A stretch of 40,974 nucleotides of DNA, taken from positions 1 to 40,974 of the forward strand of contig JAGVYP010000068.1 of the NCBI GenBank assembly GCA_018303205.1, given 5' to 3'. Below are positions 2,007 through 2,242 of the stretch, in pieces. The notes under the pieces were generated by a model. That model ran no database searches and was not told the origin of the DNA. It saw only the letters and a program-made list of their open reading frames with translations. The DNA comes from Candidatus Woesearchaeota archaeon (GTDB taxonomy: Archaea; Nanobdellota; Nanobdellia; Woesearchaeales; JAGWAF01). Within the stretch, counting starts at the first letter, position 1; every line of letters starts with the position of its first letter. A program made the position numbers and the translations under genes.

Positions 2007-2096
2007 ACTCAGCAGAGCAAAGACTGAGTATATAAAGCTTGTGCTGGTTTTCGTACTCTGTTCCTAAACTGATAAGGAAGAAGAAAGATATAAAAA

Positions 2097-2242
2097 TGTC
2101 AAAAATTTTCCACTAGTCACAGACTAGTGGCTGGAAGCCGATTGACTATTCATAGTGAAAAATTTTTGAGCATGCTCAAAAACCACTATTGATAATGGCA
2201 TGTCGCAACATGCCACCAATCTGTGATTGGTGGTTTTTGACA
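2097..2242. other. Cluster of perfect hairpins closed by an outer stem; candidate structured RNA
   Basis: Nine bases TGTCAAAAA at 2097-2105 pair exactly with TTTTTGACA at 2234-2242. Inside are: CCACTAGTC (2110-2118) with GACTAGTGG (2122-2130), loop ACA; ATAGTG (2152-2157) with CACTAT (2184-2189), enclosing the 20-base palindrome at 2163-2182; TGGCATGT (2196-2203) with ACATGCCA (2208-2215), loop CGCA; and CCACCAATC (2213-2221) with GATTGGTGG (2225-2233), loop TGT. The first and last hairpins have the same 9-bp/3-base design and complementary loops (ACA, TGT). There is no ORF here. It lies just upstream of the gene at 2277 and could be its leader, a separate RNA, or a set of protein-binding inverted repeats. 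Confidence 0.6.

Follow-up and report, generated by a model that had tools for sequence, protein, structure and literature searches.

The window, meaning the whole 40,974-nt stretch analysed here, is a contig of a Candidatus Woesearchaeota archaeon and contains a 146-bp structured element close to its start (Table 1). On one side of the element lies an ORF (157-519) that has no Pfam match and encodes a membrane-like segment at its N-terminus and a tail rich in Cys and Pro; on the other lie an acidic ORF, also with no Pfam match (2265-2606), and a tRNA gene. An earlier interpretation made without database searches (the sequence-only reading) had named this gene tRNA-Thr; ARAGORN corrects it to tRNA-Pro(TGG) (2641-2725, predicted 85 nt), which may hold a short intron after the anticodon. 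That reading had also seen no ORF in the element. A minus-strand ORF of 77 aa (2124-2357) does overlap it but is purely mechanical. A scan of the window against Rfam 15, a check that had been proposed earlier, returned two tRNAs as the sole matches above the curated gathering score and no family on the element.

All the hairpins are present as first described, and so is the exact 9-bp outer stem. Their structure is far beyond chance, as had been claimed: the plus strand folds at -56.1 kcal/mol versus -30.6 +/- 3.7 kcal/mol for shuffled sequences (z -6.95), and the minus strand reaches z -7.58, with 0/200 shuffles as good. Two larger stem units enclose the hairpins, with TGTCAAAAATTTT.../...AAAATTTTTGAGCA around P2 on the left and TGCTCAAAAACC.../...GGTTTTTGACA around P5 on the right. 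The suggested interaction between the loops ACA and TGT does not carry over to related copies, since these loops are peculiar to the window copy; most other copies have TCT on the left and T-N-T on the right, and kissing is not conserved.

Table 1. Features of the window copy (window positions), own-genome elements with inserts (G000; contig and positions) and empty sites in other genomes
Feature	Position or genome	Strand	Basis
Complete 146-bp mobile repeat, type A copy, ends TGTC...GACA	2097..2242	+	About 23 own-genome copies with common boundaries; ends fixed by empty sites of relatives
Host-side left flank AAAA, outside the element; putative target/cleavage tetranucleotide	2093..2096	+	Conserved A/T-rich flank on the left side only; kept in empty sites
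9-bp outer stem / terminal inverted repeat TGTCAAAAA/TTTTTGACA	2097-2105 / 2234-2242		
Outer stem P1, 5' arm TGTCAAAAATTTT	2097..2109	+	Pairs with 2159-2172; covariation
Guide-like tetranucleotide TTTT, 5' foot of left hairpin	2106..2109	+	Covaries with host flank: TTTT with AA at -2/-1, TATA with ATA
Left subterminal hairpin P2, CCACTAGTC-ACA-GACTAGTGG, 9 bp	2110..2130	+	Covariation; left-end model R2 built on P2 matches TnpA clade
Outer stem P1, 3' arm AAAATTTTTGAGCA, single bulged G at 2170	2159..2172	+	Covariation
10-bp central palindrome TTTTTGAGCA/TGCTCAAAAA	2163-2182		
Outer stem P3, 5' arm TGCTCAAAAA, single bulged C at 2175	2173..2182	+	Covariation; forms the central palindrome with 2163-2172
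Small hairpin P4, TGGCATGT-CGCA-ACATGCCA, 8 bp	2196..2215	+	Sequence of the P4 part not conserved outside the family
Right subterminal hairpin P5, CCACCAATC-TGT-GATTGGTGG, 9 bp	2213..2233	+	Strong covariation across genomes; same design 3' of clade TnpA genes
P3 3' arm and right terminus TTTTTGACA; GACA 2239-2242 the putative right cleavage site	2234..2242	+	Nearly invariant; TTGACA/TTTACA at many clade TnpA loci
Own-genome elements with the 56-bp unit	C21 22017-22229; C74 19434-19651; C36 12452-12660		
Own-genome elements with other double-hairpin inserts in the P5/P2 loop	C55 25079-25290; C36 21490-21698		
Empty sites, two copies in L155	G259 filled, G054 empty		
Empty site, L156, type B	G054 filled, G259 empty		
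Empty site, L161	G196 filled, G180 empty		
Empty site, L063	G187; empty on another contig of the same assembly		

A search of the element's own genome (1.42 Mb in 74 contigs, 85% complete) recovers about 23 dispersed copies, 10 of which match the window copy at 87-92% identity along practically its full length; pairwise identity among full-length copies is 84-97%. The copies are mostly intergenic, lie beside unrelated genes and point in every orientation relative to them. These varied contexts rule out a tie to one particular neighbour gene, and with it falls the earlier suggestion of a cis-regulatory leader belonging to that gene. Some copies have another kind of left half (type B), some have short internal deletions and some hold an extra 53-56-bp double hairpin, and halves are exchanged between copies in a modular fashion. 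The family is found by blastn in 14 of 99 genomes, own genome counted, and every named contig with the exact right-end pattern is Candidatus Woesearchaeota; the viral contigs searched with this pattern gave no match. The covariance model search in DPANN genomes that had been proposed was run with a model of the right half; of 353 genomes of the order, 123 carry the repeat, often in at least 10 copies.

The joined flanks of 12 copies were searched in congeneric and other genomes, which yielded five clean, uninterrupted empty sites; a sixth locus, L035, is consistent but lies in low-complexity sequence. At the junctions, such as TAATAAAA joined to GAAGC and GTTTATA joined to AATCC, there is neither duplication nor loss, and all five clean sites show exact insertion with no deletion and no target-site duplication. 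Insertion occurs 3' of an A/T-rich tetranucleotide, with a conserved left flank (TWAAAA or TTNATA) and an unconserved right flank. The junctions thus define the type A ends as TGTC...GACA and assign the A/T-rich left flank to the host, and the unit is mobile with these ends whether an empty site is the pre-insertion state or a precise loss. A second dispersed repeat (AAATCACAAGCGGATTACTTTAATCAC...) lies in the right flank of L161 (query 1003-1067) and recurs in many genomes of the same genus beside one insertion.

The sequence-only reading had raised the question whether the stems covary at homologous loci, and they do. Across 33 full-length copies, the 37 proposed pairs are formed in 96.6% of cells, with 87 double-change cells versus 28 +/- 6 when the 3' letters are shuffled, and sliding the partner columns by 1-3 abolishes the signal. 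The right half alone, in 40 copies, gives 34 double-change cells versus 8 +/- 2 shuffled. P2 and P5, the subterminal hairpins at the two ends, covary across genomes; P5 appears as CCAATC/GATTGG, CCCATC/GATGGG, CCAGTC/GACTGG and CCATTC/GAATGG, and P3 as AAAAA/TTTTT and AAGAA/TTCTT.

Most copies read TTTT in the four bases immediately 5' of P2, a second subtype reads TATA, and these bases vary together with the host flank. Copies with TTTT have A at -2 and -1 in 42/42 cases and T at -2 in none (0/42), and the TATA-type matches in the order have T at -2 in 41/44 cases, with the consensus flank TT-N-ATA. Both subtypes coexist in G052, G054, G073, G187 and G259; host background is thus no explanation for their difference, and shared descent of two subfamilies may be an alternative source of the covariation. 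The target of IS608 pairs with a guide tetranucleotide that lies 5' of the hairpin foot, and insertion is redirected when this guide is altered (PMC5934647). The covariation seen here resembles this guide/target pairing of IS200/IS605 elements. The tetranucleotide is termed guide-like because the pairing offset that fits differs from that reported for IS608, because a simple guide does not explain the type-B ends, which have AATT ahead of the hairpin and TTTAAA as flank, and because the guide was seen in no more than two states. On the right side the tetranucleotides are CATG/CATT.

The transposase family Y1_Tnp (PF01797) was not found in the own, 85%-complete genome and is present in 125/353 genomes of the order. 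It is enriched with the element, occurring in 58/123 element-bearing genomes versus 67/230 others (p 0.001, phylogeny not corrected), and several high-copy genomes, G002, G054, G110 and G118 among them, are without it. In G292, a Y1 gene encoding the motifs HUH NHVH and Y...Q is followed after 7 bp by a hairpin, CCGCCGGTC-TCT-GACCGGCGG, that is recognised by the right-end model, and the left end of this TnpA locus (ATCAGAATTCCACC...) resembles the left ends of type-B elements. Searching the order with the G292 TnpA delimits a clade in 19 genomes, counted as those matches that stand out from the general Y1 background by identity or length; the G292 locus itself was chosen through its right-end match and the remaining members through protein similarity. 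At most clade loci a P5-like hairpin lies 3' of the stop codon, and the sequence after it is commonly TTGACA or TTTACA. When 15 clade loci and 40 other Y1 loci were searched together, the 16 best matches of the left-end model and the 11 best matches of the right-end model were all in clade loci; matching end hairpins are essentially lacking at the other 40. The element is present in 11 of the 19 clade genomes, including the high-copy genomes G052, G094, G204, G305 and G342 (p 0.045, phylogeny not corrected), and clade and element coincide only loosely. The IS copies of G292 lie at contig ends, which shows that such genes can vanish from drafts and makes the absence from the own genome weak evidence.

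No autonomous copy with ends 1-3 kb apart was seen in the own genome, where every right end found has a left end within about 230 bp, and the searches found no autonomous element with exactly TGTC...GACA ends. Two further candidates for the partner enzyme were set aside: the single Y1 gene of G259, which looks like an ordinary IS200-like element and at which the right-end model finds nothing, and the other Y1 clades, whose right ends differ (e.g. ...GGAGGAGGTCATT). A 685-bp IS in G204, present in two copies (L201/L202; G204:C30, C29) and encoding a Y1 transposase of about 200 aa, has right ends (GGTTCTTGACGA / ATGCCCCCGAATTTATTCGGGGGTTCTTGACGA) close to that of the element and is a possible second, weaker alternative partner.

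The results on insertion, flank and hairpins, together with related TnpA loci that carry the element's ends, lead to an assignment to the IS200/IS605 type, and the element is most probably derived from such a transposon. Positions 2097-2242 are likely a copy of a non-autonomous, PATE- or REPIN-like member of this type that would be mobilised as single-stranded DNA by the Y1 TnpA clade, with TnpA as the putative binding partner of the hairpins and the tetranucleotide as the candidate guide. In the proposed mechanism, the top strand, single-stranded on the lagging-strand template, would fold into the two stem units with their left and right subterminal hairpins. A Y1 HUH transposase acting in trans would bind these hairpins and cut at two points, 3' of the A/T-rich left flank and 3' of the terminal GACA. 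The cut ends would be joined into a circle, which would then insert exactly 3' of a matching tetranucleotide with no target duplication. For IS608, the lagging-strand template is established as the single-stranded substrate (PMC5934647). The evidence for the present element covers its dispersal, its exact insertion and ends, the covariation of stems and of guide and flank, and the matching ends on a related Y1 TnpA clade.

Movement by some other non-duplicating enzyme, such as another HUH enzyme, a recombinase or a host-encoded mechanism, is an unlikely explanation that draws on the several near-complete, many-copy genomes without Y1_Tnp and on the nested 53-56-bp double-hairpin inserts in loops and junctions. 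A host-encoded mechanism would have its parallel in mitochondrial double-hairpin elements (cited, for example, in PMC2800124 and PMC2670323), which the present element may resemble in being mobile, intergenic and sometimes nested; they differ in residing in organelle DNA and are not known to have a transposase. Against another enzyme stand the specific match of the end models to the Y1 TnpA clade, the one-sided flank rule with its guide/flank covariation, and the contig-end position of the G292 IS copies, by which absence of the gene from drafts loses weight.

A structured non-coding or cis-acting RNA (a leader or 3' element) copied around the genome, with the RNA fold under selection, would also account for the strong covariation. 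Imperfect pairs on the plus strand favour G.T over A.C by 35 to 14 (p 0.004), which suggests that the plus strand is the folded one, as RNA or equally as single-stranded DNA, and a sequence constraint on the 3' arm could produce the same bias. Copies in all orientations to neighbouring genes, exact empty sites, modular exchange of halves with nested inserts, and the lack of an Rfam match make this RNA explanation quite improbable. The new structured RNA of the sequence-only reading survives as a new structured DPANN element with covarying stems, but one that moves as DNA, as its empty sites show, and not as a unique RNA. An additional RNA function may exist, though nothing requires it, and the structure is best explained as the single-stranded substrate of an IS200/IS605-type transposase. 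Covarying stems in DPANN genomes can thus be transposon ends rather than RNAs, which is a warning for their interpretation.

A classical MITE moved by a DDE transposase would fit the small size and the 9-bp terminal inverted repeat, but the defining target-site duplication is missing from all five clean empty sites and such a transposase would not require the internal covariation of the subterminal hairpins, so this origin is very improbable. The palindromes alone would suit a chance or locally evolved cruciform or protein-binding site, an earlier suggestion that is refuted by the many copies which the own genome and the order as a whole contain and now has next to no credibility.

The likeness of the element to IS200/IS605 transposons (IS608, Y1 HUH TnpA) extends to insertion with no duplication and 3' of a short target that stays behind as left flank, a subterminal hairpin at either end, a guide-like tetranucleotide at the hairpin foot that covaries with the target, and Y1 TnpA genes with matching ends in related genomes; it differs in having no gene, in an offset unlike that of IS608, and in the 9-bp TGTCAAAAA/TTTTTGACA, since IS200/IS605 elements have no terminal inverted repeats, with the single-stranded intermediate here putative (PMC5934647, PMC6006769). 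This repeat and the additional outer stems P1/P3 count against the assignment. PATEs, the palindrome-associated transposable elements of Haloquadratum walsbyi, are IS605-derived (PMC3119063). By description, and in a different lineage, they share archaeal hosts, a length too short for a transposase, dispersal, absence of target duplication, near-terminal palindromes as in IS605-type elements, and small inserts that attack the palindromes (PMC3119063). PATEs have no terminal inverted repeat (PMC3119063), whereas the 146-bp element has one of 9 bp and two-tier ends with a hairpin inside an outer stem; under the strict definition it has the palindromes and departs from the no-repeat rule, and is therefore called PATE-like here. 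Like REPINs, it is small and non-coding and consists of two hairpins placed in inverted order, with a Y1 transposase in trans as the presumed mover of the whole unit; unlike them, REP sequences being described from bacteria, it does not show the guides GTAG/CGTC or a single domesticated RAYT (PMC3116915, PMC6006769). In place of a GTAG/GGAG-type guide with a RAYT gene, it has the tetranucleotides TTTT/TATA (left) and CATG/CATT (right), and no Y1 gene was found in the own genome.

The element is unusual in its two-tier ends, in having a short terminal inverted repeat and in the double hairpins of 53-56 bp that nest in it. A literature search found no paper on such elements in Woesearchaeota. 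A puzzling structured region becomes a defined mobile-element family of this little-studied group. The flank covariation adds natural evidence consistent with an IS200/IS605-type target being reset by a few base changes, as shown earlier by engineering IS608.

The best-defined insert is a 56-bp unit, TGTCAAAAATGC-ATT-GCATTTTTGAGCA plus CATTCAAAAATC...GATTTTTGATG with minor variants, in copies C21b, C74 and C36c. It is placed exactly at TCAAA^AACCAC of otherwise normal elements and forms a clean filled/empty pair with other copies. Further inserts occupy P5 or P2 loops or the central junction, one type in either orientation, and loop inserts also occur in other genomes (L083, L089, L098, L112, L116, L118, L126), stacked in several layers in L118. 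Inserts with a clear empty paralogue show no duplication. Some share a TGTC...GAGCA stem with the host element, which suggests that insert and host use common machinery.

In Haloquadratum, the SMR-A repeats (about 110 bp) insert with no duplication into palindromes near the ends of PATEs and of IS605-type elements; how they are mobilised is described as enigmatic, and the SMR repeats reportedly have no relation to known transposons (PMC3119063). The nested inserts are likewise short, bear inverted repeats and lie inside terminal palindromes with no duplication, but they are half the size of SMR-A, and some share the host-element stem where SMR repeats are said to be unrelated to known transposons (PMC3119063). 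Nested hairpin repeats, of the kind whose movement counts as enigmatic in Haloquadratum, are here linked to elements with related ends. A tentative and rather doubtful extension is an order-wide system in which natural IS200/IS605-type elements have switched both DNA guide (TTTT/TATA) and target, and in which the same TnpA mobilises the SMR-like 53-56-bp inserts that share the TGTC...GAGCA stem. If true, it would account for the movement of the "enigmatic" small mobile repeats of archaea.

G052 has a further family of hairpins (L111, L123, L129), CGCTCCGCC...GGCGGGGTG, which terminates in the same TTTTTGACA. One element copy (L157, G238:C63) lies between two long inverted segments, TGTGCATAG...GCGCTCGTC, apparently inside a larger palindrome.
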